Below are positions 23,352-58,371 of a stretch of DNA of 64,000 bases, piece by piece (positions within the stretch are counted from its first letter, which is position 1; every line of letters starts with the position of its first letter). The stretch is from Vitis vinifera (lineage: Eukaryota; Streptophyta; Magnoliopsida; Vitales; Vitaceae), in the NCBI RefSeq assembly GCF_030704535.1, contig NC_081819.1:17580001-17644000 (forward strand). The letters run 5' to 3'. The translations under genes and the position numbers were made by a program. A model generated the notes under the pieces. That model was not told the DNA's origin. It saw only the letters and a list, made by a program, of their open reading frames with translations, and did not search any database.

Positions 23352-24262
23352 TTGACTTGAATTAAACCATCCTTCATGTTTGTTGTACATTTTCGTCACT
23401 TCTCTTCACCTTAGACATCTACCTCTCTAGCTTTTCCTGCATGTCGCACAATTTGCGTGACATAAGTCTTGTTTGGATAGACTTATTGGAAGCACAAGGC
23501 ATTTTTTTTTTGAGTTATACAAAATATTTTTATGTGCCCGTTTTAGCTTCTGCTGTTCAATAGAAGTCAGTGAAAGTTTTGAAGGAAAAGTTATATCACT
23601 TGAAAAATTCGTCTAAAGCCTCTGGCGACTTAGGGAAAGATTCAGAGTGTCGGAGCCCGTAACTTAATTGAAGCACATGAGCATGGCATCACATGTTGCC
23701 AGTGTCACACGACGTGCCCACAAGTCATGCAGTGCCTGTTGGCAGTGTCGTGCATTGCGCACTGTCCACAGTGCACGCCCTTACTGCTACATGTCAGTCC
23801 ACTTTCGTCCCTCGAGGCTACCTCAACCAAGTACCACGCATCTTTGAAAGCCACAGCCCTTGCTACCAAGGTATTTTCTAAGCCACAACACTGTGTTGAC
23901 TTTAGATACCGTCACCCCAAGGCCCTAACATGTCTTGAGCCATGTGGACAAGATGCCACCATACATGCCCATATGTACGTTCTAACAATTAGGGTGCTAC
24001 TGGTGGGTGTGAAAAAACGAGTATTTTTACCCTTCACATGTGATTTTTTATTTTAAAGACAAAAATAAAATAAGGTTAATGCTGAGAGGAAGAAAATTGA
24101 GTGCATTTGACATCACCCAAACAAATTTCAAATCCAAGTATTCATCAACTGTAAAGAGTCTAAAGGCGGGATGAAATGAGTAGTTTTAAGCAGTCCCCTG
24201 GCAGACACCGTAGTGCTGGCATGATGCGTTCTGGGCCTTCTGGCCGCAGTCTTAGGACTGTA
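23352..24262. other. TFCD 3' flank up to the inverted-duplication breakpoint
   Basis: The first few hundred bases are the probable TFCD 3' UTR. From about 23650 to 23960 the sequence is unusually GC-rich and repetitive in short words (GTGTC, GTGCC, GCAC), unlike its flanks. At 24176-24262 a short Arg/Ser/Gly-rich reading frame (starting MSSFKQSPGRHRSAG) runs straight into the pectinesterase homology. It could be the start of a gene cut by the rearrangement or a chance frame; I do not recognise it. Confidence 0.4.
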
Positions 24263-24668
24263 AAGAGCCTACTGGAATTTCAGTACAAGGTTCGAGAGTT
24301 CTCTCGTCTCCTGAATTCACTACTGTTAAAGGCTCTTTCAAGAGTTTCTTGGGTCGACCTTGGAAGCGATGTTCTAGAACTGTTTTCCTAGAGACAGACT
24401 TGGATGGTTTGATTGATCCAAGAGGATGGACAGAGTGGAGTGGAAACTATGGGCTGTCGACATTATACTATGGGGAGTATAATAATTCAGGTGATGGAGC
24501 ATCGACAAAGGAAAGAGTGAAGTGGCCTGGTTTTCATGTGCTAAATGGTGCTGAAGATGCTATGCCTTTCACAGTGAGTAGATTCATACAAGGAGAGAGA
24601 AATGGATTCCTGCTAGTGGTGTTCCCTTCTCTCCTGGAATTTAAGAGAGGTCTGACTATAATTAAGTC
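24263..24668 (+). pseudogene. Truncated pectinesterase 3' fragment
   Basis: It matches the last ~126 codons of the intact pectinesterase at 54786-57126, from 'EPTGISVQ' through LGRPWK and 'DPRGWTEWSGNYG' to the C-terminus. Only the active-site arginine (in LGRPW) remains; the PMEI region, the QAVAMR and QDTL motifs and both catalytic aspartates are absent. A 2-bp GA insertion near 24595 shifts the frame at the '...FIQGE' end. It is a by-product of the inverted duplication whose breakpoint cut the gene. No function is expected. Confidence 0.9.
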
Positions 24669-24717
24669 TGTAATTAACTAGTAATTAAGATAGTATTGTG
24701 AAACAATAATGCATCCA

Positions 24718-24747
24718 TATGTATATATATATATATATATATATATT
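24718..24747. repeat. (AT)n microsatellite
   Basis: An uninterrupted AT/TA run sits between the pectinesterase fragment and the extra MADS 3' fragment. It may mark the point where homology between the two arms was rearranged. Confidence 0.85.
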
Positions 24748-24750
24748 CTG

Positions 24751-24873
24751 CACATAGCATTGTAGACTCAAGAATGAAAGAACAAATACCGTCAAAAAAT
24801 TATTTGACGTTCAACATATAACAAATGAAGCCATGCCAAGAAGTACTGCATATACGCCTATATTTGCTGCATT
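24751..24873 (-). pseudogene. Third, fragmentary copy of the MADS gene 3' end
   Basis: This 120-bp stretch matches 25955-26072, the 3' UTR and last codons of the neighbouring MADS gene, with substitutions. Shared words include 'CAAGAATGAAAGAACAAA', 'CCGTCAAAAAATT' and 'TACTGCATATACGC'. It lies in the same orientation as the MADS gene 1.2 kb away. It implies a local tandem duplication in the left arm only, since the right arm lacks it. Confidence 0.75.
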
Positions 24874-26029
24874 AGATGATTAAGTTATATTCAAGAGATC
24901 TAACTCTGATATTAATTGTGGGGTTAAGGCTAATTAAGACCCTGTGCATGACCTTATCTCCTTAACTTGAATGTGGTCTTCCGATTAATGATTTTTAACT
25001 TTATATCATGCTTAATTAAAACTTAAAGATCATGATAAATCATTACATTTTGTTCATCTCCTTTGGCTAACAAAATAGATACTATGGAACTTTCCAAATC
25101 AATAATATGATGACAATTTTAAAAGAAGTAAAATAAAAATATTTAAAAAATGAATTTTTTTTCCAAACAATAAAAATTTGAAATAAGATAAGTTCACATG
25201 AATTAAAAACAAAAACATTTAGAAAAATATTAATTTAATAAAAAATAATACAATGCAAGCATTATTCTCCTTCCTTATATACCTATTAACATAAGATGCT
25301 TTTTAATGTATGATTTTATAAAAGTTTTTTTTAAAAAAAATATTATCACTAAAGAGAGAAAAGTAAAAAGTCTAAAAAAAAAAAGTCATTGGATTTGCAA
25401 TTAGAAAGTATTGATTTTGCAAATTATGGAGGCTTGGCAAAATTTTCACTTAAAATCTAAATATTATAGACCTTGAAAAGGTAAACACAAAAAAATGAAA
25501 ATAGCAAGAAATTCCACATCATACCAAAAAAAGAGGGGGAAAAAAAGTGGAAAAGCTTTGAGAAAATAGAAGAAAAATGATAATTTTGGACTTTGAAATT
25601 AAAAATGCAAAAAAGGAAAAATACAAAGATAGACGGTTGATAATGCATTTATCACAAGGCAAGCATTATCACTATTAAAAATGCAAAAATGATAATATTG
25701 ATAATGCATGATCACAATGGGTTGTTTAATACGTACTCTCTTTCAAAGATAGACATGCCACACAAATCTAAAAGCAATTAGGCATGCATCAAAATGGTAA
25801 CTCAAAATGTTAAGTTTATGAATGTTCACTGCCATATCTACTTGTAATCGACTAATTGATTTTATGAATGTTCTTGAATGTTTTTTATTTCATTGATTGG
25901 TAAGTAACACTGTACATGAACCGTGTCAATACAGGTAAACAAAATTGGTACAGAGCATTATAGACACAAGAATGAAAGAACAAACAACCGTCAAAAAATT
26001 GTTTGAAGTTCAACCTACAACAAATGAAG

Positions 26030-27289
26030 TTATGCCAAGAGGTACTGCATATACGCTGCTATTTGCTGCATAGAAATGCTTTGATCAATGTCGGGCATCG
26101 TATTCTGAGATAACCCCATCTGCGGCAGGGAATTTGTGGGAGTGGTGTTAAACATCATCGTATTCTCGGATACTGACATCCCTTGCATGGTAGGAACAGT
26201 GCCCATACTCTGATATGAAGTTGAAGATACCGACGTACCTTGCATGGTAGGAGCAGTCCCCATATTCTGATATGAAGTTGAAGGATCGATGTTATTCTGG
26301 AACATCCCATGAGCTGGATCACTCTGGAACAGGAGGTCGCTGCTGGATGCCCTTCCACCTCCAAGTTGTGGGTATTCGTTGTTCTCCATGTTCATCATTA
26401 TCTCAACCCCTCCATTACTTAGATCAGCAAAATCCAAATCATAGAAGATCGTTTCAGTGCCTTGCATGGTAGGAACAGTCCCCATCTTTTGATATGAAGT
26501 TGAAGGATGAGTGTTATCCTCCAACATCCCATGAGCTGGATCACTTTGGTGCAGGAGCTCACTGCTGGATTTCTTTCCACCTCCAAGTTCTGGACATTCG
26601 TTATTCTCCAAATTCATCATCGTCCAGGTCAAATCAGATTCAACCCCTCCATCACTTAGTTCAGGAAAATCCAAATCATACAAGACCATTTCAGAGCCTT
26701 GAAAGGCTGAGTCATCCATGGCCACATGGATATCAATTGGCTCAGCTGTAGGCAAACCCGGCATATGATCAGGGCAGTTCGCAAGAGTCTCACTCATCAA
26801 ACCCGCTTCTCCCCTCTTCAAATCAATCAGACTCTCCACACTCTCAAGTTTCTTGTCCAACTTATTAACAATTTCCATCAGCTTTTCATAGGAAAGCCCA
26901 TCCAATTCCAATCCAGTCTCGGAAGTCTGCCCTTTGGTTTTGCCATTTTTTTCCTGCAACTTCTGGAGCTCAAATTCGGCCCTCGTCTTTCTGCTTTCAA
27001 GAACCCCAGATAAATCCACCGTCCTCTTTCCATTCTCTTTCTTCCTCTCATTGATGTACTTGTTAATTATCCGTTCAACTTCGTAGTGATTTTCAGGCCA
27101 AACACAGGGCTGAGAAGAATAGGTGCCGTTGCCATTAGGACAACATATGATCATACATGCTTCAACACCACATAGAGTTGAGAGCTCATGAACTTTTTTC
27201 CTCAGACCCTTTTGTCTATTTTGGAAAGTTCTGTGCCGGATTTTTTCATTAGCGATCAACTCCAATTTCAACTTGCCGCCAACCATCAT
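26030..27289 (-). CDS. Type I (M-gamma-like) MADS-box protein, copy 1
   Basis: A single coding exon encodes 419 aa. Residues 1-60 are a MADS domain ('RHRTFQNRQKGLRKKVHELS', 'LCGVEACMIICCP') followed by 'QPCVWPE'. That pattern is typical of the AGL80/PHERES-like M-gamma group, which binds DNA as dimers in the nucleus, often in female gametophyte and endosperm. There is no K-box, but residues 100-165 are charged and probably helical. The C-terminal half is acidic and repetitive: YDLDFPELSDGGVE (204-217) recurs as YDLDFADLSNGGVE (283-296), and PSTSYQKMGTVPTMQG recurs three times (262, 336, 355). The 5' leader carries an intron (27291-27464) with a TATA box further up. It is nearly identical to copy 2 at 52691; compared with it this copy lacks FDLNW after residue 296 and has 11 extra residues around 325-335. 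Confidence 0.9.
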   Translation of the reverse strand: MMVGGKLKLELIANEKIRHRTFQNRQKGLRKKVHELSTLCGVEACMIICCPNGNGTYSSQPCVWPENHYEVERIINKYINERKKENGKRTVDLSGVLESRKTRAEFELQKLQEKNGKTKGQTSETGLELDGLSYEKLMEIVNKLDKKLESVESLIDLKRGEAGLMSETLANCPDHMPGLPTAEPIDIHVAMDDSAFQGSEMVLYDLDFPELSDGGVESDLTWTMMNLENNECPELGGGKKSSSELLHQSDPAHGMLEDNTHPSTSYQKMGTVPTMQGTETIFYDLDFADLSNGGVEIMMNMENNEYPQLGGGRASSSDLLFQSDPAHGMFQNNIDPSTSYQNMGTAPTMQGTSVSSTSYQSMGTVPTMQGMSVSENTMMFNTTPTNSLPQMGLSQNTMPDIDQSISMQQIAAYMQYLLA

Positions 27290-27290
27290 T

Positions 27291-27464
27291 CTGAAAGAGA
27301 AAAGAAGCAGAGGAAGAAGAAGGAGGAGGAGGAATAATCAAAATTCATTCTTTGGGTTTGAATATGTGGAGCAACGGAAGAAAAAGGAGAGAGATCAAGA
27401 AGAAGAAGAAGGAATAATCAAAATTCTATCTCTGGAAGAAAAAGGAGAGAGATCAAGAAAATAC
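27291..27464 (-). other. 5' UTR intron of MADS copy 1
   Basis: On the minus strand CTCAG|GTATTT (GT at 27464-27463) and CTTTCAG|A (AG at 27292-27291) bound a pyrimidine-rich intron ending one base before the start codon. The intron contains a tandem repeat of a CTCTCTCCTTTTTCTTCC-type unit. The same structure is conserved in copy 2. Confidence 0.6.
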
Positions 27465-27511
27465 CTGAGCGCGAGATGATCTCAATGTAGACGGAAAGAG
27501 GCGTATTGCTG

Positions 27512-27521
27512 GTATTTATAG
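27512..27521 (-). promoter_or_regulatory. TATA box of MADS copy 1
   Basis: CTATAAATAC on the minus strand lies about 50 bp upstream of the leader-intron donor, a normal spacing for a plant TATA promoter. The matching position in the right arm (52487-52495) is identical. Confidence 0.65.
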
Positions 27522-29056
27522 ATTGAATTTAGAACCGTTTTATAACGGTCATAAAATCAAATATTTAGAAAATCCGAAAAGATTATATTTTATTCCAAAA
27601 ACCCATTTTCAAAATATACATAGAAAATAAAATGTTTTCCGTGTATTTGACATTTACTGACTGAAGATTGAAGTCAGTTTTATTAAAGAAACTGTCATAA
27701 ATCAGGTTTATTTCTAACCAATTTTGAACCCTATTAAAATTAATAATAATTGTATTAATTGACATCACAACATATTTCATTTTCAAATTTTTAAATATAT
27801 ATAATTATAATTTAAATTTAAATTTAATATCATTATTAAAAAAAATTGTATAGTTTGACAAAAAAACACTTATAATATTAAAATAACATTTTTGAAGAAA
27901 AACTAAAAATTTAAAAAAAATTTAAAAAAATAAAAAAAATCACTTATATGTTTTCTAAAAAAATTCTTGGTAAATAATTTTTTCAAAAACATTTTAAATC
28001 AATAATATTTCGAAAAAAATATTGTTAAATATGTTTTAAGAATACATTCAATAATACTTTTAAAAAAACACTTTTATTATAAATAAAATATTTTCATTAA
28101 AAACAATTTAAATAAAAATATTATTAAATGAGCTCTAAAAACGCTTTAATTATAATCACTTTCAAATGACTTATCTTTATATCAACCATTTTTTTCTTAC
28201 TTCAATTTCTAATAAATAATTTAATCATTTTAATAAATGAAAACAAAATTAGATTTTTCACTATTATTCTTTATATCAATAATTCAAACATGTCATATTT
28301 ATTTTAAAAATAAGAATAAAAAATTCATTTGCAAAAAAATTGCTTTGAGTTTAGAAAATATATTTAAAGTGCATTTGACAATACTTTTAAAAAATTATTT
28401 TAACATAAAAAATATTGTTGAAGAAAATAAAGTGTTTGAATTTTTTTTTATCAAATATTAAAAAAATTAAAAAATCACTTAAAATACTCTCTTAAGAAAT
28501 ATTTCATGAATAATTTTTTAAAAATACTTATTGAAAAAATATTTATATTAAAAACATTTGAAATAAAAAATATTATCAAACACCCTATTTAATAATCTCA
28601 AAATTTAAGAACTTGTTTGGTGGAATTTTTAAAAACAATTTTATGAAAAAAAAAGCCCCCCAAATCAGCACTAATTTTCTTTTAAATATGTTTGATAAAA
28701 ACATAAAAATACAACCACCAAAATGCAAAAACAAACATATTTTTCTTAAAAAAAAAAATCAAAATTTAAATCTGGAAAAAAGACCCATGTAATTAAGAAG
28801 GAGCTCAACCTAAGTCAGGTCAAAATTGTAATTTTCTAGCTTTTCTTTTCCCTTCGGTCAAGTTGCTTCCTCCTCCGTCACCACCATCGTCTCCATTCTC
28901 GGCAAACCCTACCATACGCTCTCTTCAATCGAAGCCACTCTCAGTCTCAGAACTGTTGGAATCTACTCAATCGGATTACAAAATCGATAATCTTGACCTC
29001 TTTTTTGGTCAATACATCTGACGATCCTTCTTCATTTCGCTCGAGGTTTTGGTCCA
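27522..29056. other. AT-rich region between the divergent MADS and MAP1A promoters
   Basis: MADS copy 1 (-) and MAP1A (+) are transcribed away from each other across this 1.5 kb. Most of it is extremely AT-rich with no coding potential. The last ~250 bp (28800-29056) are balanced in composition, with CT-rich words such as 'CTTCCTCCTCCGTCACC', and are the probable MAP1A promoter and 5' UTR. The whole stretch is duplicated in the right arm. Confidence 0.5.
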
Positions 29057-32000
29057 ATGAGTGCTACTGAATCCATATCGTCCTGTGGTCGATGTGGAAA
29101 GCCTGCGAATCTGCAGTATGCGATCGAACTTTCTCTTCTATTTTAGATTTCGCTTTTACGACGTCGATTTTTTTTGTCCGCATTTTGGATGCGCTTTTCT
29201 CTTGATTCTTGAATTCGAGGTCTTGCAATTGATTTTAACTCGTAAAATGAAGAGAAATAAAGTGTTTCAAAAATGCTGACCAAATTAGGGATAAGTTTAC
29301 GTTACGATTTACGAGTGTTTTCCCCTATATTTTTGTCGAGTTTAATACAATAATTCCTGAATTATTTGCAAGATGACATCTTGTATGGTTCTTGATTTGT
29401 TGATGTGCGTTGTTTTTCTTGGCATCAATTTATATGGATTATTTCGGATTAAGTTTTATACCCACTTCCTAAATTTTCTGTACCAGTATATACGTTTATT
29501 TTTGTTGCTTTTTTACTGGGCCGAGACTGGTTAGTCAGGTGCCCACAATGCAAAAATAAATAAATAAATGAAAAATAAAATAAAATTGACATGGGCATGG
29601 CTACATGGGTATTCTGCAATATTGGCATGTGTAAAGAATATCATATTGACGGCAGAAAATTTGGAGCATTAATGGTTGAAAATTGAGAGATTCATATTTT
29701 TTGAAGTTAACAGTCTTGGTTATTTTCTTAAAATGAGATAAAACATGAGATTAACAGACATGTTATCTGATAAACATCCAAAGAAAAGTATGGGATTGGG
29801 TATTAGAAGTTGGCCTTTGCTTAGTAAAGCATTTCTTACAGAGGAGCTTTGGAAAAGTATATTGGGAGGGTGGGACAAATTTTTGAAAGCTTGTTAGTTT
29901 ATTTTGGGAGAGGGTCAAAGAGTAAGGTTATGGCATGATTGTTGATGCAGTAGTTACCCTTTGAAAAACTAGTTTCATAGAGCTTTCCAGGATTGTGCAA
30001 AATGGAGATGTCACAGCGGAGAATTTTCAGTTGTGGACAGGAAGCTGGATTGCGATGTTCATTAGAAATTTTCATGTCTAGGATTGGAGGTGGTTGGTTT
30101 TTTCATGAATCAAATATACTGGTTTGTTGTGGACAAGTGAGAGTAGATGCTATAGTTTGGATTTGGGAGAAAAATGGAAAATATGCATTCAAATCTTTTG
30201 TAGGATTATATCTAAGGGGTGAAGCAAATTTCCATCAGAAGAAATTTGGGAAATGCTAACTCCTTTCAAACATGGCTTTCTAACTCTGGGCAACAATGTG
30301 AGAAACGATTCTCACTATGGATCAATTGAGGCTAGGAGAGGGCCATTGCAAACTGGTTTGGCATGTGCAAAAGGGCAGAAGAGTCAATTTATCAATACCG
30401 GTTCTTTGATTCTTGTTTTGTTTGGTATGCGTCCTCCTTCACTCAATGATGGAAGTTCTTTCTATTTGGCAAAAGAAATCTTTTTATAGTGGCCAGGGAC
30501 AGGTGCATGAACAGCAAACTACATCCCAAAGGGAAAAAATAGGATAATTTTTGAAGGTGTTGATTTACCTGCAAGAAAGCTGAAGGAAATGGTCCATATT
30601 TCCTTTATATTTGACAGTGGAATCTGCTTCTAATAATAGAAGCAGGTCATGGGAATTCATTGATAAATTTGGCTATCACTGTGTTTTTGGGTTTCTAGAT
30701 TGTATTCCTTTCCAGTTACCTAGTTGTTTTTGGGGATTCACATTTTTCCTTCCTCTGCAGAGTTGCACTTTCTTCGACGCTTTTTTATATTTTTCTATTA
30801 TTGCTTACATATAAAAACAACAAAACAGAATGTGAGATACGTGCTAGAATTTAAGGATGAGGCCCCATTTTACATCCATCATTAGAAATATTATCCTTGG
30901 TGTACGCTTTAGCGTTATTCGGAATGAAATTGCATATTAAGGTATGGCTAGGTTGCTGAGATGAGGCAACTGATCTATGTTTTTTGCTTTTTGGCTATCA
31001 TTCAAGAATCCAAATCACATTATAATATCTCATTTCATATCAAACACCATCTTGTTGAGTATTATTGGTTTTGTGGGTTGTTCCCTGAAAATAGTCCGAT
31101 CTCATGTGCTCTAATCTGTGTCCAATATTCTGATTTTTTTTTCCTGCTGTTTGCAGGTGTCCCAAGTGTGTGGAACTGAAGCTTCCCCGTGAAGGTGCTG
31201 CATTCTGGTTTGTACCCATTTCCTGAGTTGTCTGAATTCTATCCCACAAGAGCTAGGGTAGGTTGAGGAAGATGAAAAAGTAGAAATAGAAATCAAGTTG
31301 GTGGTATCAATGTTGCCCCCTGTATCAAAATTGGCCTGTTATGCTCTTCGTATAGACCCTTTCCAAGTCTGCGCGATTCTAGAAGTATTACTTCTTGATT
31401 GCCAATTATACTGCATAACCAATAGTTTTTTTTTTTTTTTTTTTTTGATAAGTAAAGAAAATTCATTTAAAAAGAGACGCCAAAAGAGCTGCATAACCAA
31501 TAGTGCAGGTTTTCCCGGCTGCGAACTAGTTTTGGCTAACATTCTTGGCAAGCCCTTCTCCTGTTACCGACTAGCCTCCTAGGAAATTGGCATTAATTCA
31601 AAGAGTGTTTTAGAATAATCTCAAAACTTGAAAGGTGACCCAAAATAGTTTGGGTGTTGTCAGCTGGTTGATTGAACTCTTCTCTAATCGAATTTGTACT
31701 TGTGTAGTTTTGCTTTAAATAAATCTTATTGAAGAGGCAATTAGGGGAAGTTGGTGCTCTTTGGTTGTCAACGGTCCTTTATTTTGACTGATACTTTTTA
31801 GACTTTCAAAAAACCAATTTTGGTTGTTAATTCGGAGATTGGCAAAGAACCAAATTCATTTTGCTTCATGGTTATGCAAGCATGATCATTCAGTAGGTGC
31901 CTGTTTGACCATTGTTAGAGCATGATATACACCGTGGGAGAAAATTGTACCAGTTTACACTTTTAGGAAAGTTGGTAGTCTAACATGGTATCAAAGCTCT

Positions 32001-35000
32001 AATCAACTACAAATCTCTTTTTTGAGTCCTTCCTCATCTATTTTCTATGTGATTTGTCTGCTTGCTTATTTCTTTCTCCACCACATGAGTGGGTTGGCCT
32101 TAGAGAATGATATATATTGTGAACTTAAATACTAACAACTTTAGCTTTTAGGAAAGTTGGTAACTCAACAACCAGGATTTCTCAAAGAACAATTTCTGAA
32201 ATTTGATTTTTAGTACAAACCCCACCAAGGGGTTTTTGCTGCATTGGTATGAAGCCACCACTCTACAATGCTTGCAATCCATTAAAATACGGGGAAGAGG
32301 AACTGTTTTAAATTTCTTTGCAACTAAATCTCAAGGAGGAACCAAATTAGCAATTTTGTCCCAAATTTTGTTGAATTTCTTTCTGATCCAATTGCCTAAA
32401 ATGAAGCAAAATGAATTGAACCCCAAAAATATCTTATAGCTGGTTGGTGGAACTATGCCATGTGTTTTGTGGTAAAACTGTTTGCTGATTATAAAATTGT
32501 ATTACTAATTGTGGTTGGAGTGATTGATAATGTAGTTTGTTGTTTTATGTGTAAATATTTGTGGAGTATTTGTTTGCCTAATTGAAATTGGGGTGAGTCT
32601 GTTGTGTCTGTACAGGATTAAGAATGAGCCTTATAATGAGTTATTCATGTTTTATCTAGAACATTTTAGACTCTAACCATTGATATTCTCTATTTTTCTT
32701 TTGTTGACAATGGTGTCTCCTTTCCATATCATATTATCAACTACATTTTTAAATGTTGTATAAAACACAATGGATTAATTCAATTTCAGGGAGACACATA
32801 ATATGCTCTTAATGTCAAGTTACAAAGGTCCTGCTGGGGTGTAGCTCAACTGTAGTGGCCTTTTGGCAATGAGCCAAGTGTCTAGAGCTCCAGCATCCCT
32901 AGTATTTAAGTGTTGTAGGAAAGAAGGGGAGGCCCAAGGTATCTGAGGTTTGCTTCACTGGTAGATGGAATAAATATCTTGTTGTTGGGGTGAATTCCCC
33001 GTTATAATTATATTTTTTTTTTTTAGAAATAAAGTTATGTTACAGAGGTTTTCTTTTCTCATTTTTTCTTTTGTCAAGTCCGATGGGTTTGGTCACTGCC
33101 ACAGTTCCTTCTTTTTCTGATGTGCATGGCTACTCTAGCTGGGGACAAGCTTAAAATTTTCCTGTTCATCTTCTTTCCATTTAGCTCACTAGTTGTTTGA
33201 TTGAAGACATCTTGATTTAATAAGTATTAGTTACTAAAATGTGTACTCTAGTTTTTGTTTTTCTACTTATAGAGCTATATCTCTTATCAGCACTCAGGAT
33301 TGTTTCAAGGCTTCATGGAGCTCTCATAAGTCAGTTCACCAGAAGGCAAAGTTATCATCACTTGGGACAGGGACTCCAGCTGTGCAAAATTCAGCATCAC
33401 CTAATGAAGGGTGGCTGTATTGCTTGAAGAAAGGACAAGCTAGAACTCCAAAAATTCCATTTTTTGATTGGACGGGGTATTCATGATGACTTTTGTTTAT
33501 CTTGGTGTTTCTTTGTTTCGTACCCTCATGATAATGCTTCTCAATCAATTTCTGGAAGTTGAGATGTTTCCTGTAGTGTCTTTGTTTGTCACACTAGAAA
33601 ATATACGAAGGCAGTTGAAGAGGGAATTTATTTATTTTTCTGTTTTTTGTGGAGATAAAATTCAAATAGGGAAATATAAAAGTCTCTCGCTATGTATTTG
33701 TACCTTGTGCTGAAATTTGTTACTTTTCTTCTAAGTGCTCTCTCCGAACTGCTCCGCCTCAAAGGTGGAAATTTTGTGGACAAGAAGCCATTGCACTCTT
33801 GCCCTTTAGATTCTCTTATTTTCTATCCTTTTAATTAGATTATGGCATTCTTTCAGAAGAAGCAACTTTTTTTTTTTTTTTTTTAAAAAAAAAACTCCTA
33901 TAACCTGCAAGATGTGCTAATTTTTCTTAAATTGATTTAGTACTTAATTATTCAGAAGGATCCTAGTGTTTTTTTCTTTTTGTTCATTTCTTTTTTCAGT
34001 TTCTTCTTCTCTTTTAGGTCAAACTCACATCTTACCTTTATCATTTTTTTAATGTGTTTTATGGATGGTTTTTTCTTGTAACTTTTCTTTCTACAGGACA
34101 TTGAGGCCTTATCCCATATCAAGTAAGCGTATTGTACCTGACCACATCGATCTACCTGACTGGGCAATTGATGTGAGTTGTTTGACTCTTTTATATATTT
34201 TTTGTAAAAAAATTGTTGATATGAAAATAAGTCATTTGAAAGTGATTCTGATTATGGGTAAAAAAATTGTTTGACTCTTTTATATTTAAATGTCATGGAT
34301 CAGTTTTTGTGTTTTCATATACTAAATTGTATTATATGTTAAACATTTGACTCTGGTTATGGGTTTATTGTCCATTTATATGGTTATCCTCTCATGTGAT
34401 AATTTATTTGGTCCATTTCCTGATGCAATTCAAATTTGGTAAATTACTGCATCACATGCTCATTGATTCCTATGATTATCCTATAGGTGTCAAATTACAT
34501 TTCTTGGTGTATTGTACATTTTTATCAGATTGGTGTATTTTACTTTTAATACTTTGTTCCCCTTAAAAAAATTGTAGGGAATCCCAAAAATTGAGCCCAA
34601 CAGTGATTTGCAGCATATTGTAGAGGTAACATTGGACTTGAAAATCTCTTGAAGCAGTTCTTTTTAGTATGAATCATGCAATCAAGTTGCATTTTTCTCT
34701 TAAAATGCATATTTTTGTTTTCTTGTCATTCACTTTTTGTTCTAATTGAAATGTTTGTTTTGAAGATCAAAACTACAGAGCAAATTGAAAGAATGAGAGA
34801 AACTTGCCGAGTGAGTTTCTATTCCAAACTTTTTTTGTCTAAAATTATTGTTTGATGAAGCAAATTTGTCTTGCTACATGTTTTCTTTGTGCTTGGATGT
34901 TGAGTTTACACAATGATCTCCTTACACCTGCACCAAGTGGCTGGAGTCTTGCTTCCAGATTGTGAATTTTGGCTTATCATATTTCATGAACCATGGATAA

Positions 35001-48315: not shown

Positions 48316-48539
48316 GAATGTTGCCTCTCCAATTTTACTGCCAGTTGACATTGGACATAGGTGGCAAAAAGCATAAAATGGTGCTGGTCCTTTTTTTTTT
48401 CTGTTCTGGTTGACATTGGAAGGAAGAGAATCCATTCATGAACTATACTGTCAGTAACAGATTATAAACTATTGTGCGGGGACTTCCATGCCTTTTTTTT
48501 TTGTCTTTTGGGCTCAGTTGTATTTGTAATTCGCCAGAT

Positions 48540-48545
48540 AATAAA
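48540..48545 (+). terminator. Candidate poly(A) signal of MAP1A
   Basis: AATAAA lies 225 nt after the stop codon, preceded by T-rich sequence and 'TTGTATTTGTAA'. If used, MAP1A transcripts end shortly before the right duplication arm begins at 48822. Confidence 0.5.
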
Positions 48546-49379
48546 AGGTCTTTGAATTTGAATTAGAAGTGTGGTTAATGTGGTCTACATATATGATCGA
48601 GTACCAATGCTACCCCTGAAGAAATATGAAATGGGATTCCAAAGGAAAGAAAGAGGGACCAATGGTGAGTTATAGCCCATTTATTTACGAGAAGTAGGGG
48701 CCATGTGATGTGTGCTATGCAGTTTAAAGTGGTTGAATACTGGGAGGATTTGAGTAGGGATTCCAGAAGAGCACTAATCTGATGAAGTATTAGTTTTGAA
48801 TTGCGAAACGGTAGTAATATCCAACAAGATGGTGTTTGATATGAAATGAGATATTAAAATGTGATTTGGATTCTTGAATGATAGCCAAAAAGCAAAAAAC
48901 ATAGATCAGTTGCCTCATCTCAGAAACCTAGCCATACCTTAATATGCAATTTCATTCCAAATAACGCTAAAGCGTACACCAAGGACGATATTTCTAATGA
49001 TGGATGTAAACGGTCCCTCATCCTTAAATTCTAGCATGTATCTCACATTCTGTTTTGTTGTTTTTATATGTGAGCAATAATAGAAAAATATCAAAAAGCA
49101 TCGAAGAAAGTGCAACCCTGCGGAGGAAGGAAGAATGTGAATCCCCAAAAACAACTAGGTAACTGGAAAGGAATACAATCTAGAAACCCAAAAACACAGT
49201 GATAGCCAAATTTATCAATGAATTCCCATGACCTGCTTCTATTATTAGAAGCAGATTCCACTGTCAAATATAAAGGAAATATGGACCATTTCCTTCAGCT
49301 TTCTTGCAGGTAAATCAACACCTTAAAAAATTATCCTATTTTTTCCCTTTGGGATGTAGTTTGCTGTTCATGCACCTAT

Positions 49380-50110
49380 CCCTGGCCACTATAAAAAGAT
49401 TTCTTTTGCCAATTAGAAAGAACTTCCATCATTGAGTGAAGGAGGACACATACTAAACAAAACAAGAATCAAAGAACCAGTAATGATAAATCGACTCTTC
49501 TGCCCTTTTGCACATGCCAAACCAGTTTGCAATGGCCCTCTCCTAGCCTCAGTTGATCCATAGTGAGAATCGTTTCTCACATTGTTGCCCAGAGTTAGAA
49601 AGCCATGTTTGAAAGGAGTTAGCATTTCCCAAATTTCTTCTGGTGGAAATTTGCTTCACCCCCTTAGATATAATCCTACATAAGATTCGAATGCATATTT
49701 TCCATTTTTCTCCCAAATCCAAACTATAGCATCTACTCTCACTTGTCCACAACAAACCAGTATATTTGATTCATGAAAAAATCAACCACCTCCAATCCTA
49801 GACATGAAAATTTCTAATGAACATCGCAATCCAGCTTCCTGTCCACATCTGAAAATTCTCCGCTGTGACATCTCCATTTTGCACAATCCTGGAAAGCTCT
49901 ATGAAACTAGTTTTTCAAAGGGTAACTACTGCATCAACAATCATGCCATAACCTTACTCTTTGACCCTCTCCCAAAATAAACTAATAAGCTTTCAAAAAT
50001 TTGTCCCACCCTCCCAATATACTTTTCCAAAGCTCCTCTGTAAGAAATGCTTTACTAAGCAAAGGCCAACTTCTAATACCCAATCCCATACTTTTCTTTG
50101 GATGTTTATC
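49380..50110 (-). mobile_element. Degraded LINE remnant, duplicate of 29760-30500
   Basis: The minus-strand copy of the decayed ORF2 remnant in MAP1A intron 1, with the same broken frames (for example '[15 protein letters not shown]' at 49625). It was copied as part of the right arm. Confidence 0.65.
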
Positions 50111-50762
50111 AGATAACATGTCTGTTAATCTCATGTTTTATCTCATTTTAAGAAAATAACCAAGACTGTTAACTTCAAAAAATAGGAATCTCTCAATTTT
50201 CAACCATTAATGCTCCAAATTTTCTGCTGTCAATATGATATTCTTTACACATCCCAATATTGCAGAATACTCATGTGGCCATCCGCATGTCAATTTTATT
50301 TTATTTTTCATTTATTTATTTATTTTTGCATTGTGGGCACCTGACTAACCAGTCTCGGCCCAGTAAAAAAGCAACAAAAATAAACGTATATACTGGTACA
50401 GAAAATTTTGGAAGTGGGTATAAAACTTAATCCGAAATAATCCATATAAATTGATGCCAAGAAAAACAACGCACATCAACAAATCAAGAACCATACAAGA
50501 TGTCATCTTGCAAATAAATCAAGAATTATTGTATTAAACTCGACAAAAATATAGGGGAAAACACTCGTAAATCGTAACGTAAACTTATCCCTAATTTGAT
50601 CAGCATTTTGAAACACTTTATTTCTCTTCATTTTACGAGTTAAAATCAATTGCAAGACCTCGAATTCAAGAATCAAGAGAAAAGCGCATCCAAAATGCGG
50701 ACAAAAAAAATCGACGTCGTAAAAGAGAAATCTAAAATAGAAGAGAGAGTTCGATCGCATAC

Positions 50763-50821
50763 TGCAGATTCGCAGGCTTTCCACATCGACCACAGGACGA
50801 TATGGATTCAGTAGCACTCAT
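50763..50821 (-). pseudogene. Orphan copy of MAP1A exon 1
   Basis: All 59 bases match exon 1 of MAP1A (29057-29115), including the start codon, the first two zinc-finger cysteines ([13 protein letters not shown]) and the donor CTGCA|GTATGCG. About 240 bp of the upstream leader and promoter region are duplicated too. No exon 2 follows, because the duplication ends at 48822. A transcript from here would run toward and antisense to the 3' end of MAP1A. Confidence 0.9.
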
Positions 50822-51216
50822 TGGACCAAAACCTCGAGCGAAATGAAGAAGGATCGTCAGATGTATTGACCAAAAAAGAGGTCAAAATTATCGATTTTGT
50901 AATCCGATTGAGTAGATTCCAACAGTTCTGAGACTGAGAGTGGCTTCGATGGAAGAGAGAGTTTGCCAAGAAATGGAGACGATGGTGGTGGCGGAGGAGG
51001 AAGCCACTTAACCGAAGGGAAAAGAAAAGCTAGAAAATTACAATTTTGCCCTCGAGGTTGAGCTCATCTTAAATACATCGGTCTTTTTTTCAGATTTAAA
51101 TTTTGTTTTTTTTTTTTTTTTAAGAAAAATATGTTTGTTTTTGCATTTTGGTGGTTGTATTTTTATGCTTTTACTTTTTGAAATATGCTAATAAAGCTTA
51201 AAATTTTGAGAAAATG

Positions 51217-51220
<4 letters not shown>

Positions 51221-51258
<38 letters not shown>
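51221..51258. repeat. (TA)n microsatellite, right arm only
   Basis: A TA run of nearly 40 bp is absent at the matching site of the left arm, so it expanded after the duplication. Confidence 0.85.
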
Positions 51259-51260
<2 letters not shown>

Positions 51261-52486
51261 AATCAAACATATTTAAAAGAAAATTAGGGCTGATTTGGGG
51301 GCCTTTTTTTTTTCATAAAATTGTTTTTAAAAATTCCACCAAACAAGTTCTTAAATTTGAGATTATTAAATAGGGTGTTTGATATTATTTTTTATTTCAA
51401 ATGTTTTTAATACAAATATTTTTTCAACAAGTATTTTTTAAAAATTATTAATGAAATATTTCTTTAGAGAGTATTTTAAGTTATTTTTTAATTTTTTTTA
51501 ATATTTGATAAAAAAAAATTCGAACACTTTATTTTTCTTCAAAAATATTTTTTATGTTAAAATAATTTTTTAAAAGTATTGTCAAATGGACTTTAAATAT
51601 ATTTTCTAAACTCAAAGCTATTTTTTTGCAAATGAATTTTTTATTCTTATTTTAAAAATAAATATGACATGTTTGAATTATTGATATAAAGAATAATAGT
51701 GAAAAATCTAATTTTGTTTTCATTTATTACAATGATTAAATTATTTATTAGAAATTGAAGTAAGAAAAAAATGGTTGATATAAAGATAAGTCAGATTATG
51801 ATTAAAGCATTTTAAGAGTACATTCAATAATATTTTTATTTGAATTTTTTTTAATGAAAATATTTTATCTAAAAGTTTGAAAATATTTAATTTTTTAAAT
51901 CTCCCCAACACTTTATTTACACTAAAAGTGTTTTTTAAAAGCATTGTTGAATGTACTCTTAAAACACATTTAACAATATTTTTATTTGAAATATTATTGA
52001 TTTAATATGTTTTTAAGAAAATTATCTCCCAATAAATTTTTTAGAAAACAATATAAGTGATTTTTTTTTATTGTTTTTAAAACGTTTTTTTTTTTTAATT
52101 TTAAGTTTTTCTTCAAAAATGTTATTTTAATATTATAAGTTTTTTTTTTTTTTTTGTCAAACTATACAATTTTTTTTAATAATGATATTAAATTTAAATT
52201 TAAATTATAATTATAATTATATATATTTAAAAATTTGAAAATGAAATATGTTGTGATGTCAATTAAAACAATTATTATTAATTTTAATAGGGTTCAAAAT
52301 TGGTTAGAAATAAACCTGATTTATGACAGTTTCTTTAATAAAACTGACTTCAATCTTCAATCAGTAAATGTCAAATACACGGAAAACATTTTATTTTGAA
52401 AATGGGTTTTTGGAATAAAATATAATCTTTTCGGATTTTCTAAATATTTGATTTTATGACCTTTATAAAACGGTTCTAAATTCAAT

Positions 52487-52495
52487 CTATAAATA
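52487..52495 (+). promoter_or_regulatory. TATA box of MADS copy 2
   Basis: CTATAAATA lies about 58 bp upstream of the leader-intron donor and is conserved in copy 1. Confidence 0.65.
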
Positions 52496-52544
52496 CCAGC
52501 AATACGCCTCTTTCCATCTACATTGGAGATCATCTCGCGCTCAG

Positions 52545-52689
52545 GTATTTTCTTGATCTCTCTCTTTTTCTTCCCGAGATTGAATTTTGATTATTCCTTC
52601 TTCTTCTTCTTGATCTCTCTCCTTTTTCTTCCAGAGATTGAATTTTGATTATTCCTCCTCCTTCTTCTTCTGCTTCTTTTCTCTTTCAG
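52545..52689 (+). other. 5' UTR intron of MADS copy 2
   Basis: CTCAG|GTATTT to CTTTCAG|A encloses a pyrimidine-rich intron ending one base before the ATG. It carries the same CTCTCTCC/TTTTTCTTCC tandem repeat as copy 1 but is shorter (145 versus 174 bp), so the leader has changed by repeat loss or gain. Confidence 0.6.
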
Positions 52690-52690
52690 A

Positions 52691-53932
52691 ATGATGGTTG
52701 GCGGCAAGTTGAAATTGGAGTTGATCGCTAATGAAAAAATCCGGCACAGAACTTTCCAAAATAGACAAAAGGGTCTGAGGAAAAAAGTTCATGAGCTCTC
52801 AACTCTATGTGGTGTTGAAGCATGTATGATCATATGTTGTCCTAATGGCAACGGTACCTATTCTTCTCAACCATGTGTTTGGCCTGAAAATCACTACGAA
52901 GTTGAACGGATAATTAACAAGTACATCAATGAGAGGAAGAAAGAGCATGGAAAGAGGACGGTGGATTTATCTGGGGTTCTTGAAAGCAGAAAGACGAGGG
53001 CCGAATTTGAGCTCCAGAAGTTGCAGGGAAAAAATGGCGAAACCAAAGGGCAGACTTCTGAGAGTGGATTGGAATTGGATGGGCTTTCCTATGAAAAGCT
53101 GATGGAAATTGTTAATAAGTTGGACAAGAAACTTGAGAGTGTGGAGAGTCTGATTGATTTGAAGAGGGGAGAAGCGGGTTTGATGAGTGAGACTCTTGTG
53201 AACTGCCCTGATCATATGCCGGGTTTGCCTACAGCTGAGCCAATAGATATCCATGTGGCCATGGATGACTCAGCCTTTCAAGGCTCTGAAATGGTCTTGT
53301 ATGATTTGGATTTTCCTGAACTAAGTGATGGAGGGGTTGAATCTGATTTGACCTGGACGATGATGAATTTGGAGAATAACGAATGTCCAGAACTTGGAGG
53401 TGGAAAGACATCCAGCAGTGAGCTCCTGCACCAAAGTGATCCAGCTCATGGGATGTTGGAGGATAACACTCATCCTTCAACTTCATATCAAAAGATGGGG
53501 ACTGTTCCTACCATGCAAGGCACTGAAACGATCTTCTATGATTTGGATTTTGCTGATCTAAGTAATGGAGGGGTTGAATTTGATTTGAATTGGATAATGA
53601 TGAACATGGAGAACAACGAATACCCACAACTTGGAGGTGGAAGGGCATCCAGCAGCGACCTCCTGTACCAGAGTGATCCTTCAACTTCATATCAGAATAT
53701 GGGGACTGCTCCTACCATGCAAGGGATGTCGGTATCTTCAACTTCATATCAGAATATGGGCACTGTTCCTACCATGCAAAGGATGTCAGTATCCGAGAAT
53801 ACGATGGTGTTTAACACCACTCCCACAAATTCCCTGCCGCAGATGGGGTTATCTCAGAATACGATGCCCGACATTGATCAAAGCATTTCTATGCAGCAAA
53901 TAGCAGCGTATATGCAGTACCTCTTGGCATAG
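52691..53932 (+). CDS. Type I (M-gamma-like) MADS-box protein, copy 2
   Basis: This 413-aa single-exon protein is about 97% identical to the product of 26030-27289. The first 85 residues, covering the whole MADS domain, are identical; the DNA there differs at only three synonymous sites. Later differences are about eleven substitutions, five extra residues (FDLNW) that complete the second acidic repeat, and loss of 11 residues before the second PSTSYQ motif. The domain layout is as in copy 1: DNA-binding MADS domain, charged middle part, and acidic C-terminus with repeats of YDLDF..LS.GGVE and PSTSYQ.MGT.PTMQG. An AATAAA poly(A) signal lies at about 54073. Expected to be a nuclear transcription factor. 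Intact frame and promoter suggest a working paralogue. Confidence 0.9.
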   Translation: MMVGGKLKLELIANEKIRHRTFQNRQKGLRKKVHELSTLCGVEACMIICCPNGNGTYSSQPCVWPENHYEVERIINKYINERKKEHGKRTVDLSGVLESRKTRAEFELQKLQGKNGETKGQTSESGLELDGLSYEKLMEIVNKLDKKLESVESLIDLKRGEAGLMSETLVNCPDHMPGLPTAEPIDIHVAMDDSAFQGSEMVLYDLDFPELSDGGVESDLTWTMMNLENNECPELGGGKTSSSELLHQSDPAHGMLEDNTHPSTSYQKMGTVPTMQGTETIFYDLDFADLSNGGVEFDLNWIMMNMENNEYPQLGGGRASSSDLLYQSDPSTSYQNMGTAPTMQGMSVSSTSYQNMGTVPTMQRMSVSENTMVFNTTPTNSLPQMGLSQNTMPDIDQSISMQQIAAYMQYLLA

Positions 53933-54785
53933 CTTCATTTGTCGTAGGTTGAACTTCAAACGATTTTTTGACGGTTGTTTATTCTTTCATTCTTGTGTCT
54001 ATAATGCTCTGTACCAATTTTTTTTACCTGTATTGACACGATTCATGTACAGTGTTACTTACCAATCAATGAAATAAAAAACATTCAAGAACATTCATAA
54101 AATCAATTAGTCGATTACAATTTACAAGTAGATATGGCAGTGAACATTCATAAACTTAACATTTTGAGTTACCATCTTGATGCATGCCTTGCTTTTAGAT
54201 TTGTGTGGTATGTTTGTTTCTTTTAAGTTATTTCTACTTGAAACTTAAATAACCCATTGTGTATACACATCATTTCTTTACGATATTTTGTTCGAGAATT
54301 GAATTCTTCCCTAGTATTGGATATATTTCATGTTTTTTATCTCTAAAATAAGAAAAATAATTGTAACTTTTATATAAGACATAAGAATTTTTAAAAATTT
54401 ACATTAAAAATAATGATTTTAAAAACTATTTATAAAATAAGATACATAAAAATTAGCTTAACATACAATAAAAACTCTTATTAAATATAAAAAAATATAT
54501 ATATTTTGCCTTCTCACAATTTTGTCTTATATTTTAGAGAAATCTTATAACATTTTGAGTCCATGCATTGTAATTACAATGAAGATTTTGAACATTATGA
54601 GAGTAATAAGACAACATCTATATTACACTTTGGAGATAGCATATTAGGCTCCTCTTTATAGCTGCTTGCATATTAGGTATTTTACATAAGGCAACTCATG
54701 TAGTATTAGAGATGGATGCATTATTATTTCACAATACCATCTTAATTACTAGTTAATTACACACTTAATTATAGTCAGACCTCTC
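53933..54785. other. Convergent 3' region between MADS copy 2 and pectinesterase
   Basis: The two genes point toward each other. The sequence is AT-rich, with a poly(A) signal for the MADS gene near 54073. The left arm matches it only in parts, with extra sequence and a duplicated MADS 3' fragment there. Confidence 0.5.
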
Positions 54786-57126
54786 TTAAATTCCAGGAGA
54801 GAAGGGAACACCACTAGCAGGAATCCATTTCTCTCCTTGTATGAATCTACTTACTGTGAAAGGCATAGCATCTTCAGTACCATTTAGCACATGAAAACCA
54901 GGCCACTTCACTCTTTCCTTTGTCGATGCTCCACCACCTGAATTATTATACTCCCCATAGTATAATGTCGACAGCCCATAGTTTCCACTCCACTCTGTCC
55001 ATCCTCTTGGATCAATCAAACCATCCAAGTCTGTCTCTAGGAAAACAGTTCTAGAATATCGCTTCCAAGGTCGACCCAAGAAACTCTTGAAAGAGCCTTT
55101 AACAGTAGTGAATTCAGGAGATGAAAGAACTCTCGAAGCTTGTACTGAAATTCCAGTAGGCTCTTCGGGGATGTCTCTTCCCTGTGCGGTGATCATGTTG
55201 GATTGGCGGTTCATTGGTTTTCTCACGTAGATATCACAGTTTTGGAAGACAACTGCGGCATTACCGAATATGAAATCGATAGTGCCATATACATGGCAGT
55301 CGCGAAAGAATTGTCTATTAGAATGGACGTATAATGTGTCTTGGTAACCTTTAAAACTACAACGGTAGAACACCGAGAGGTCCGAGCTCACCCTCATTGC
55401 CACTGCCTGATGTTTGTGAGGCCCTGCTCTGTTCTCAAATGTTATGTCTTTTGCCCAAAAGCCATCTCCAGACACACCTGCAAAGGACCAAAACTATGAT
55501 CAGTAAAATTGAAGGGCACCCTCTCCAACAATTAGAACCGTTACATTATAGTTGAGTACCAAACGTGGCGGAGCTTGGAGTGGTTGCACCATCGTGGACA
55601 TTTCGATCAGCGGTGATAATGGTTTTATCAACACCATCACCAACAAACATCACATTGTTCAAGTTTTTTCCAATCTCCACCTTCTCATTGTAGATCCCGG
55701 ACTTCACGTAGACAACCACTCTTCGAGTCCTCTTATGGACCATGCGGGTTAGTGCAGCAACAGCTTCATTAATTGTCATGTGATTTCCGGATCCGTCCTT
55801 GGCCACCACGATGTCTGCCTTGGATGTTTTTGGACTCCATTCAGCTAGCATCACTTCATTTTGGCTCGGTTTCAATGTCGGTTGCACTTCTAAGTATTAA
55901 TATAAAAAATAATAAATTTCAAGAAAATGCACCTTCATAATAACCACGTGTACTCGATAGGCACCATTTATCACCAATTTTGTTTTGATATGTACGTATA
56001 AAAAGAACATGCGAGTGTCCAAAACAACTAACAAGAAATTTCTTGCAAAGGCAAAACAAGTTGGAAATTTTGGCAAATTTATTTTACATTATTTTAAATC
56101 ATGATAGAGAAGGCAGCACTTTGATGGTGTTCATGAATTTCTAATTTTATTTAGAAATAATAATTTTTAAAAATGTTTCTAACATTTTTAACATTTAAAA
56201 ATAAAAATTTTCAAATATTAAAAAATCAAAAATATTTTTAAAAATCAAATGCACTCTTAAAGTGTGGGATTTTAAAAAGTATTTTTAAAGTCTAAAAGCG
56301 TTTCTAATAACTCAGGTGTTTGTTTTTTTACTTAATTATAAATAGAATTTTAATATTTAATAGCGTTAAATATTAGATTGTTTGTTTTTTTAACATTTTG
56401 TTTTTATTAAATATTAAAAAAGTAAAGAAAAATCAATATGTTATTTTTTCTATTTAGTTTTTCTATTCAGTAAAAAATTTATAATAAATCATGAAAAAAT
56501 ATAAAAACAACAAACTAAATCCAGAAAATAAATGTAAAAAACCAAAAAAATAAACATCGTATCAATGTCAAATACACTTTTAATATATTTTAAGATTCGA
56601 AGCTTCAAACACACTCTTAATATATTTTAAGATTCTCGTAATCGGATCAGTTTGGCCATTTGCATAGAAACTTACCCTTCTCCGCATCCGTATCCGGCTC
56701 CTTATACTTCGCATACAAAGCCAAAGCTTCACTTAGCCACACGGTGACATTCCGAGCCATAGGAGCCTCAGCCATCCCCTTACCCTCCAAGCCATCCAAA
56801 CAGGTCCTATGGCTAGCCAGCGCGCTGCTGAGCCACGTACGTGCATCATCACAGTTTCGGGTCTCACCCGAGAGCAACCTGGTCAGTCGGCTCTCGGACT
56901 CTTCATAAAGCTTAACACAGTCACCCAGAGCCTCACCCACATAACCCGAATCAACAAGATTTAACCCGTGAAGCCTCAATGAACCCCGAGCCCATCTCCC
57001 ACCTTGCAAGAGTCCGAACCGAGCCGTCCGAACCGCTTTGAGCTCTTCATTGCAGGCAACACTGATGGTGAAGGATAAGAGAAGAAGAAAGGTAGTGACC
57101 CAATAAGCCATTTCGGTTGTGATCAA
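54786..57126 (-). CDS. Pectinesterase with PMEI pro-domain, 3 exons
   Basis: Exons on the minus strand: 57126-56676, 55889-55560, 55477-54786 (both introns GT-AG, phase 1), 490 aa. It demethylesterifies wall pectin, releasing methanol. The N-terminus is a signal peptide (hydrophobic WVTTFLLLLSFTISVAC). A PMEI-like pro-domain follows with four Cys (in SVACNE, LGDCVK, TRNCDD, HRTCLD). The catalytic domain has GIYNEKV, QAVAMR (284-289), QDTLYV (306-311; D307), DFIFG (D328) and LGRPW (R396): all five active-site residues (two Gln, two Asp, Arg) are present. A basic RRLL/RKLL processing site is not visible before the catalytic domain. Start choice is open: a TATA box at 57145-57154 is so close that the second ATG at 57111 (MAYW...) may be the real start, giving 485 aa. 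Confidence 0.92.
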
Positions 57127-57144
57127 GAATGAACCGGAAGTGGG

Positions 57145-57154
57145 TCATTTATAG
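57145..57154 (-). promoter_or_regulatory. TATA box of the pectinesterase
   Basis: CTATAAATGA on the minus strand lies only about 20 bp before the first ATG and 35 bp before the second. With normal TATA-to-start spacing the transcript would begin near 57115-57120, which favours the ATG at 57111. Confidence 0.5.
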
Positions 57155-58371
57155 ATGGATCAAGAAACCAACACGGCAACACATGGACCATGGTTCAAGC
57201 CATGTGTCCCCGGGTCAGATCCCTAGTGAGTGGATGTCTTATATGGAAATTTTAAGTATTGACGCGTACGTTAAGGAAAAAAAAAAACAAAAAACTCAGT
57301 TGATATTAATTTCCCAAGACTTCGAAAATATCTCTCAGAAAATTATGCTTTATAAATCATGAAAACAATAAAAACATTAAAAACATTAAAAACATTTCCA
57401 CTATTTCAAATACTGCGAATCAGTCGGGGTGTAATGGAGAACCCTGAAACCATCAGTTGGAAAAGCGATTCCAAGGGGTGGACGCGTTACCGATTGGAAA
57501 AGCGGTGGTGATGAATAGGATACGTGTGGGATGGTGATCCCACTACTGCTGAGAAGAGGCCACTGTTTGGACACATGGGCAGCAAGGAAACAAAAAAAAC
57601 ACTTTGCTTTTGAAAATCATAGCCATCAATGGAGGGTACTTTGTGATATGCATTTCAGGTTTCCAAAAGCTCAAGTAATATCTATTTTTGTTACTTGTTG
57701 CATTCATTTAAGGCAACTTTTGTCATTTTTTTCTCGTTTATTTTCCTTTTCAAAAAATTGTTTCCAATTTGTAAATCATGGTTAATTTTGAAATGCCCTT
57801 AACGTGCAAGTGAAGAATTTAAATGTCCGAGGTGTAGCATCAAGGATTACGCACGTGTCGAAATGTTTGAGTAGAGGTATTGTCGACAATAGCTCTTGCC
57901 ATTGCAGTCGACCTTCTCTTAAGCCTCTACTGAAATAACATGGAGACTCCTAATGAGGAGAGGTAGAAAGCTACTACTAAGACTCTTTCCCAGACACGAC
58001 AGGGTTAAAACTGGCCTTTGCTTCCAAGACTCGACCAAAGCTGTACCATTAAAGATGTCGGTTGGATATACTTTTTATTTTTAAGCTTTTTAGAAAAATA
58101 AAATGATAATAATGTTAAGAAACATGATAGATATATTGAGTCTAAATCCTATAAGTTTACATTTAAAAAAAAAAAAAAATTTAATATGGTGTATAAGTTT
58201 ACATTTTTTAAAAAATTAATAGTTTAATATGATATCTGATTTGATGGAAGGTCATAGGTTTAAACAATCTCTTAACCATTTATTGGCAATATTTGGTATC
58301 ACTGTACCCAATTTGCAATTCAAAGCCGTGATAGTTCACCAAATAATTCTTATACAAAATGTAATACATAG
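57155..58371. other. Intergenic region upstream of the pectinesterase
   Basis: Mixed AT-rich sequence with no gene recognised. Short patches at 57420-57560 and 57840-58040 are more GC-balanced but have no sustained coding frame. The dispersed repeat at 58118-58270 lies near its end. Confidence 0.45.
58118..58270. repeat. Dispersed repeat, further copy
   Basis: 'ATATATTGAGTCTAAATCC' and 'TATAAGTTTACATTT' precede 'TTTAATATGATATCTGATTT' and 'GGAAGGTCATAGGTTTAAAC'. The order matches the family at 15030 and 31915 (gagtccaaatcctataagc, then tggtatcagagc, then aggtcatgtgttcgag), but it is strongly decayed. Confidence 0.4.

Follow-up and report, generated by a model that had tools for sequence, protein, structure and literature searches.

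A putative small inversion flanked by inverted, gene-carrying duplications in the Vitis vinifera genome

Layout of the locus

Here, we analysed a stretch of 64,000 nucleotides of Vitis vinifera (contig NC_081819.1, positions 17,580,001 to 17,644,000; hereafter the window, with position 1 as its first letter), in which a segment of more than 6 kb is present twice in opposite orientation. From left to right, the window carries a tubulin-folding cofactor D gene (TFCD, plus strand), a left arm (L), the methionine aminopeptidase gene MAP1A (plus strand), a right arm (R), a pectinesterase gene (minus strand) and a Copia-type element. L occupies positions 24263-31064 and R, its inverted copy, positions 48815-55165; both contain a MADS gene. 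The arms are 17.75 kb apart, and their layout suggests that the block between them (31065-48814) is an inverted segment, perhaps produced together with its duplicated ends.

Structure and divergence of the inverted arms

The arms were compared by BLASTN of the window against itself and then realigned piecewise. Three collinear inverted matches were obtained: 24263-24718 against 55165-54712 (97.4% identity), 25753-28711 against 54213-51247 (91.3%, with gaps) and 28696-31064 against 51173-48815 (96.5%). Inverted matches of such length are far beyond chance. Thus, inverted copies stand at both ends of block 31065-48814, a feature of duplication-flanked inversions. An initial annotation, made from the letters only, had described the arms as inverted copies and proposed BLASTN as a check; the search recovered them, and both arms and their limits can be read directly from the alignment. 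The limits given at that time were correct within 7 bases, but the arms are not homologous throughout, because an internal block had been missed. In each arm, this block separates the end of the pectinesterase from the flank 3' of MADS, and comprises 1034 bp in L (24719-25752, at an (AT)n run) and 498 bp in R (54214-54711). Neither part has credible homology to the other arm, and the best match between the two blocks had an E-value of 0.005 over 17 bp. Within the L block, 121 bp (24752-24872) are 86-88% like the MADS 3' end and probably represent what is left of a third MADS copy.

Outside the internal block, we counted 10 substitutions among 454 positions in the pectinesterase end and 144 among 5208 in the region that runs from the MADS 3' flank into MAP1A intron 1; a total of 30 indel events separate the arms. 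The second figure includes 8/277 in the MADS 3' flank, 17/1223 in the MADS coding region, 66/1535 in the AT-rich stretch between MADS and MAP1A, 8/232 around MAP1A exon 1 and 45/1941 in MAP1A intron 1; in the most divergent 300-bp window, 30 of 299 positions differ. R is longer than L by 48 bases at 51922-51875 and by 89 bases at 51262-51174. A perfect (AT)19 run (51220-51257) was observed inside the 89-bp stretch that L lacks.

Reciprocal truncation of pectinesterase and MAP1A

The two flanks of the duplicated segment are truncated in opposite ways. L is joined to a MAP1A gene that is whole by its recognised exons and retains just the end of the pectinesterase gene; R is joined to the full pectinesterase gene and has only exon 1 of MAP1A. 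This pattern, which had been claimed in the initial annotation, is directly visible in the window. That annotation had also called MAP1A intact, which holds as far as the recognised exons go, since these were identified by eye and by matches.

The full pectinesterase gene (54786-57111, minus strand) is of the PME36 type and has three exons in our own splicing, which encode 485 amino acids with Pfam Pectinesterase and PMEI domains; the product is 93% identical to Vitis piasezkii protein P0014. In the accessible text of the respective reports, the name pectinesterase 36 is given to VIT_15s0048g00500 (PMC6839162), and VIT_15s0048g00510 is likewise called a pectinesterase (PMC4301461, PMC9965549). 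No literature was found on VIT_15s0048g identifiers 00460-00490. In L, only the last 380 coding bases are left, as a pseudogene fragment on the plus strand (24263-24644) that aligns with the full gene and whose translation matches Pfam Pectinesterase over residues 2-114. The fragment is frameshifted by a 2-bp indel in a GA run, and has Cys at a column where 112 of 120 homologues have Tyr. At two other positions L has the more frequent residue: Gly (32/120) as against Ala in R (4/120), and Ala (31/120) as against Thr in R, which is outside the 12 commonest letters. Both L states are also found in P0014, although this sequence seems to be misread beside the Gly/Ala position and carries little weight there. 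The R pectinesterase thus carries changes of its own, too. No credible trace of the missing 5' part of the pectinesterase gene was detected between TFCD and L (23349-24262 against 55166-60100, best E-value 0.045).

MAP1A exon 1 lies in L at 29057-29115 (plus strand), collinear with the rest of the gene, and yields a zf-C6H2 domain once joined to exons 2-3. The remainder, from exon 2 (starting at 31157) to the stop codon (31157-48315, plus strand), falls in the putatively inverted block and matches Methionine aminopeptidase 1 over 115 amino acids of the joined exons. An orphan exon 1 in R (50763-50821, minus strand) is identical to that of L and reads toward the MAP1A 3' end. Beyond R, no credible trace of the MAP1A region 31065-42200 was found (48313-48814 against 31065-42200, best E-value 0.19). 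This second exon 1 with its upstream region, aimed at the 3' end of MAP1A, could yield antisense RNA.

Remnants of long interspersed nuclear elements (LINEs) were also observed in MAP1A. The last intron, as placed by eye, contains LINE-type reverse-transcriptase fragments on both strands (42262-46516), including a Pfam zf-RVT match on the minus strand (42262-43590) and a plus-strand stretch (45973-46290) under the Pfam cut-off. In both arms, part of intron 1 (about 29880-30490 in L and 49390-50000 in R) resembles an old LINE remnant by eye; positions 49416-49655 of it had no Pfam match.

Junctions

At the left junction (24262/24263), the downstream flank of TFCD meets the middle of pectinesterase exon 3, and homology with R ends exactly there (24262/24263 and 55166/55165). 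The outer base is A at 24262 and G in the pectinesterase gene, so there is no microhomology at this junction. At the right-inner junction (48814/48815), where homology ends as well, the MAP1A 3' flank meets MAP1A intron 1 of R. Both sides share the 5-bp motif TATTA (31060-31064 and 48819-48815), which could be a microhomology.

Close to the left junction, the 11-base word ACTGTAAAGAG occurs at 24148 and 24257 (24148-24271, plus strand), its sole occurrences in the window, and the second copy spans the junction. The approximately 98 bp enclosed by the pair have a GC content of 54%, compared with 43% in the flank, and may possibly be filler DNA. The translated stretch near this junction had no Pfam match and no credible match in the Protein Data Bank. 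For a 15-mer at the left junction, the best match was 13/15, and a chance test set at 14/15 gave 0 of 2000 shuffles and 19 of 1500 random window positions; since the test was stricter than the match, we claim no significance for this direct repeat. No transposable element was recognised at the junctions by Pfam domains and repeats within the window (a transposon library was not searched).

MADS copies and age of the duplication

Each MADS copy is a single open exon with a Pfam SRF-TF domain: L encodes 418 amino acids (26030-27286, minus strand) and R 412 (52694-53932, plus strand). In the codon alignment the copies differ by 7 synonymous and 11 non-synonymous changes (synonymous divergence, dS, 0.028; non-synonymous divergence, dN, 0.011), and each has a private in-frame deletion. 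A 57-bp tandem unit was observed in the coding sequence of both (26169-26283 in L and 53679-53793 in R); protein P0001 has the 19-residue unit as well, whereas P0002-P0004 lack it. In a tree of 11 MADS proteins (the two of the window and 9 of 13 search matches), the branching among L, R and P0001 was not resolved, and the end branches measured 0.013-0.015. Two lysines are common to P0001 and L and missing in R and P0002-P0004. L and R also have residues in common that are missing from P0001; one of them, a histidine, is missing from P0002-P0005 as well. The residues shared between proteins may point to a duplication that predates the split from the source of P0001. A further relative, P0003 of V. 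piasezkii, was rejected as gene-order evidence for the locus: it is listed with a longest contig different from that of P0014 (31.5 and 23.1 Mb, respectively), and is probably a paralogue elsewhere. A grapevine MADS study names M-gamma genes on chromosome 15, among which, in its accessible part, the gene of the window is not identifiable (PMC4729134).

The Jukes-Cantor distance between the two copies of MAP1A intron 1 is 0.0235. With plant substitution rates of 2.5e-9 to 6.5e-9 per site and year, this corresponds very roughly to 2-5 million years.

A proposed small inversion with a duplicated breakpoint

The best single-event account of these data, in which we place about even confidence, is an inversion of approximately 31065-48814 whose ends were staggered or made by repair. 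The ancestral order would have been TFCD (plus), MAP1A (minus), MADS (plus) and pectinesterase (minus). One break would have fallen in the short stretch between the 3' ends of TFCD and MAP1A. The other would have been staggered: MAP1A intron 1 would have been cut 6-7 kb away from a cut in the last exon of pectinesterase, and the stretch between these cuts would have been retained or re-copied at both broken ends. Rejoining of the MAP1A block (about 31065-48814) in reverse would then place one copy of the segment at each end, so that MAP1A would be whole at one end and pectinesterase at the other, and the MADS gene would be doubled.

A plain inverted copy does not account for the layout, because it would keep both flanks whole in one of the copies, and here each copy has one flank cut. 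Both breaks lie within genes, yet one whole pectinesterase gene and one MAP1A gene (by recognised exons) persist, which we count in favour of an inversion. The pectinesterase end (2.2%), MAP1A intron 1 (2.3%) and the synonymous sites of MADS (dS 0.028) have diverged to a similar degree, which favours one event. It had been predicted that the other break would adjoin TFCD, and this agrees with the TFCD coding end at 23351, 0.9 kb to the left of 24263. The staggered-break inversion put forward by the initial annotation is thus supported in part, by the reciprocal truncation and by the position of the second break; on the other hand, exactly the same layout would result if an inverted duplication had come first and the arms had then recombined. 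As a source of the overhang, the layout fits one chromatid, two sister chromatids, two homologues and repair synthesis alike; an isochromatid overhang of 6-7 kb would be a long one.

Gene order in other plants was also considered, as independent though weak evidence. The pectinesterase gene models of Hibiscus (P0028) and Reevesia (P0105), both of which we take to belong to Malvaceae, appear to run on into MAP1A-like sequence: residues 498-519 of P0028, a protein for which transketolase domains are also listed, match MAP1A exon 2 at 12 of 22 positions, and residues 396-416 of P0105 match MAP1A exon 3, out of frame, at 12 of 21. These matches were taken seriously mainly because they are located in the C-terminal extension, and they hint weakly that pectinesterase is followed by MAP1A on one strand in the two models. 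The duplicated segment itself already implies such an adjacency. For linkage of pectinesterase with TFCD, we counted by eye 10 species present both among the best 120 of 147 pectinesterases and among the best 120 of 557 TFCD matches. The same longest contig was listed for both proteins in six of them (Liquidambar, Cornus, Pistacia, Cephalotus, Ziziphus and Diospyros) and different ones in four (Bertholletia, Macleaya, Ricinus and Reevesia). The shared Cephalotus contig is 213 kb long; in Liquidambar, 209 numbers separate the two locus tags, and the genes may not be close. These data suggest TFCD-pectinesterase linkage in several lineages and say nothing on MAP1A orientation. In Arabidopsis, we take pectinesterase At3g60730 to lie beside TFCD At3g60740 and transketolase At3g60750, and pectinesterase At2g45220 to lie near MAP1A At2g45240 and transketolase At2g45290. 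If so, this order favours a placement of TFCD and MAP1A on the same side of pectinesterase, contrary to a history of duplication and loss. No paper on this neighbour order in Arabidopsis was found.

Several observations weigh against a single staggered-break inversion. The non-homologous inner block is not expected from one event on one chromatid. Divergence is uneven, being 1.4% in the MADS coding region, 3.4% at the MAP1A 5' end, 4.3% in the AT-rich stretch and 10% in one 300-bp window. The MADS protein P0001, which comes from another source, is about as distant from L and R as these are from each other, which fits a duplication older than species splits as well as a younger one. The E-values of the P0028 and P0105 matches (0.006 and 0.004, among 253 queries) are of a size expected about once by chance, and unrelated matches were stronger (P0085, 0.000145; P0079, 0.000888). 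Finally, we infer, and do not observe, the end-joining, the single event and the ancestral orientation of MAP1A, and the last of these is itself a cost of the reading.

The inner block is unproblematic if the layout arose in two steps, with a truncated copy of pectinesterase, MADS and MAP1A exon 1 entering in opposite orientation between TFCD and the 3' end of MAP1A, and the block flipped later when the arms recombined. Arms of such length and similarity, at a distance of 17.75 kb, are good substrates for recombination of this kind, which can recur, and the flip would swap the flanks to give the layout observed; this route requires two events and an insertion of more than 6 kb at a break, and we regard it as possible but rather unlikely. 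Two events would also be needed without any inversion, if a longer piece (whole pectinesterase, MADS and MAP1A exon 1) had been duplicated in inverted orientation downstream of MAP1A and the 5' part of the original pectinesterase gene had been deleted between TFCD and L. The one whole copy of each gene and the decaying pectinesterase fragment in L agree with this history; no remnant of the lost part was detected in the comparison described above, and the original pectinesterase would have stood between TFCD and MAP1A, unlike the Arabidopsis order that we assume. This history is considered unlikely.

Allelic copies could also pose as an inverted repeat if haplotypes or contigs had been misjoined. 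Two haplotypes of a heterozygous plant could likewise diverge by 2-3% and differ in structure as the arms do, and the 2-bp indel in the GA run could itself be a sequencing error. The window contains no N, the frameshift and the change at a strongly conserved residue would be unlikely in a working allele, and each MADS copy has its own in-frame deletion; an assembly error seems quite improbable. Least of all do we expect a rearrangement driven by transposons, by alternative transposition or by recombination between elements. Transposon fragments do occur in the window, and alternative transposition generates inversions in maize, where, according to the available text, element termini and 8-bp target duplications mark the cases (PMC8225341). 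Here, no element ends were recognised at the junctions by the searches mentioned above, and there is just a short direct repeat near the left one.

One form of the staggered-break inversion, which is speculative and which we hold to be unlikely as a whole, would draw the arms from two homologous chromosomes. The two inner blocks would then represent structural heterozygosity of the founder, frozen in the breakpoints; the MAP1A block would still be able to flip, and both orientations may segregate in Vitis. If the inversion with staggered ends were confirmed, the locus would be a compact example, from a plant, of a small inversion whose origin is legible base by base. It would show which genes were cut, how duplication of a breakpoint spared both of them, and how a type I MADS gene came to be doubled as a side effect.

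Other features of the window

TFCD (5004-23351, plus strand) was delimited by exon-wise matches to TFCD proteins P0134 and P0135 (of which P0135 carries the name Vitis vinifera), with aligned exons at 5004-23348 followed by a stop codon. Among the matches listed in the protein searches, Vitis was the source of the best named relatives for the MADS, the pectinesterase and the TFCD of the window alike. At the right end, the Copia-type element (60142-64000; gag, GAG-pre-integrase and retroviral SH3-like domains) apparently continues past the window. At the left end, a cluster of related repeats (265-2471) contains two tRNA-like stretches over the Rfam gathering score (1154-1226 and 1970-2027), and may possibly represent tRNA-derived short interspersed nuclear elements or a nested element. 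A scan of viral contigs revealed no relative, and one 19-base match in a bacterial record, from a scan of bacterial genomes, was taken as chance.

Comparison with known inversions

In a limited literature search, staggered breaks were named mainly in studies of Drosophila inversions, and the plant literature found concerned Ac/Ds rearrangements in maize and rice, as well as tomato and soybean. This search yielded no plant case with arms attributed to staggered breaks, and we make no claim that the Vitis case is the first. The accessible part of a tomato pangenome paper had nothing on mechanism (PMC10181942). Inversions at maize p1/p2 resemble the Vitis case in being from a plant and having sequenced junctions, but they arose by alternative transposition and have Ac/fAc ends and 8-bp target duplications, none of which were recognised in Vitis; in the same report, as far as its text was available, staggered cuts are cited as one way in which inversions with inverted duplications on either side arise (PMC8225341).

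Duplication-flanked inversions are already well described in Drosophila, and the Vitis case appears to fit them by its layout. For D. subobscura O7, the available text holds that inverted duplications may arise by repair alone or that two homologues may be rejoined (PMC7584159). This homologue-mixed model could also account for Vitis arms with different inner blocks. O7, unlike the Vitis block, is described as a complex multibreak inversion (PMC7584159). Other parallels are D. subobscura E12 and E9 and D. mojavensis 2h and 2q, in which, according to the accessible parts of the reports, single-copy DNA with complete or partial genes is inversely duplicated at the block ends, an arrangement that the Vitis arms resemble (PMC4965816, PMC3355041). 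The Vitis case differs from these four in being from a plant, in its block of about 18 kb, in an ancestral orientation that is deduced and in the non-homologous block within its arms. The duplicates at the ends of Drosophila inversions are given as a few hundred bp to 8 kb (PMC4965816) and as 1, 4.3 and 7.1 kb (PMC3355041), and the Vitis arms are inside this range, in agreement with an inversion of this kind.

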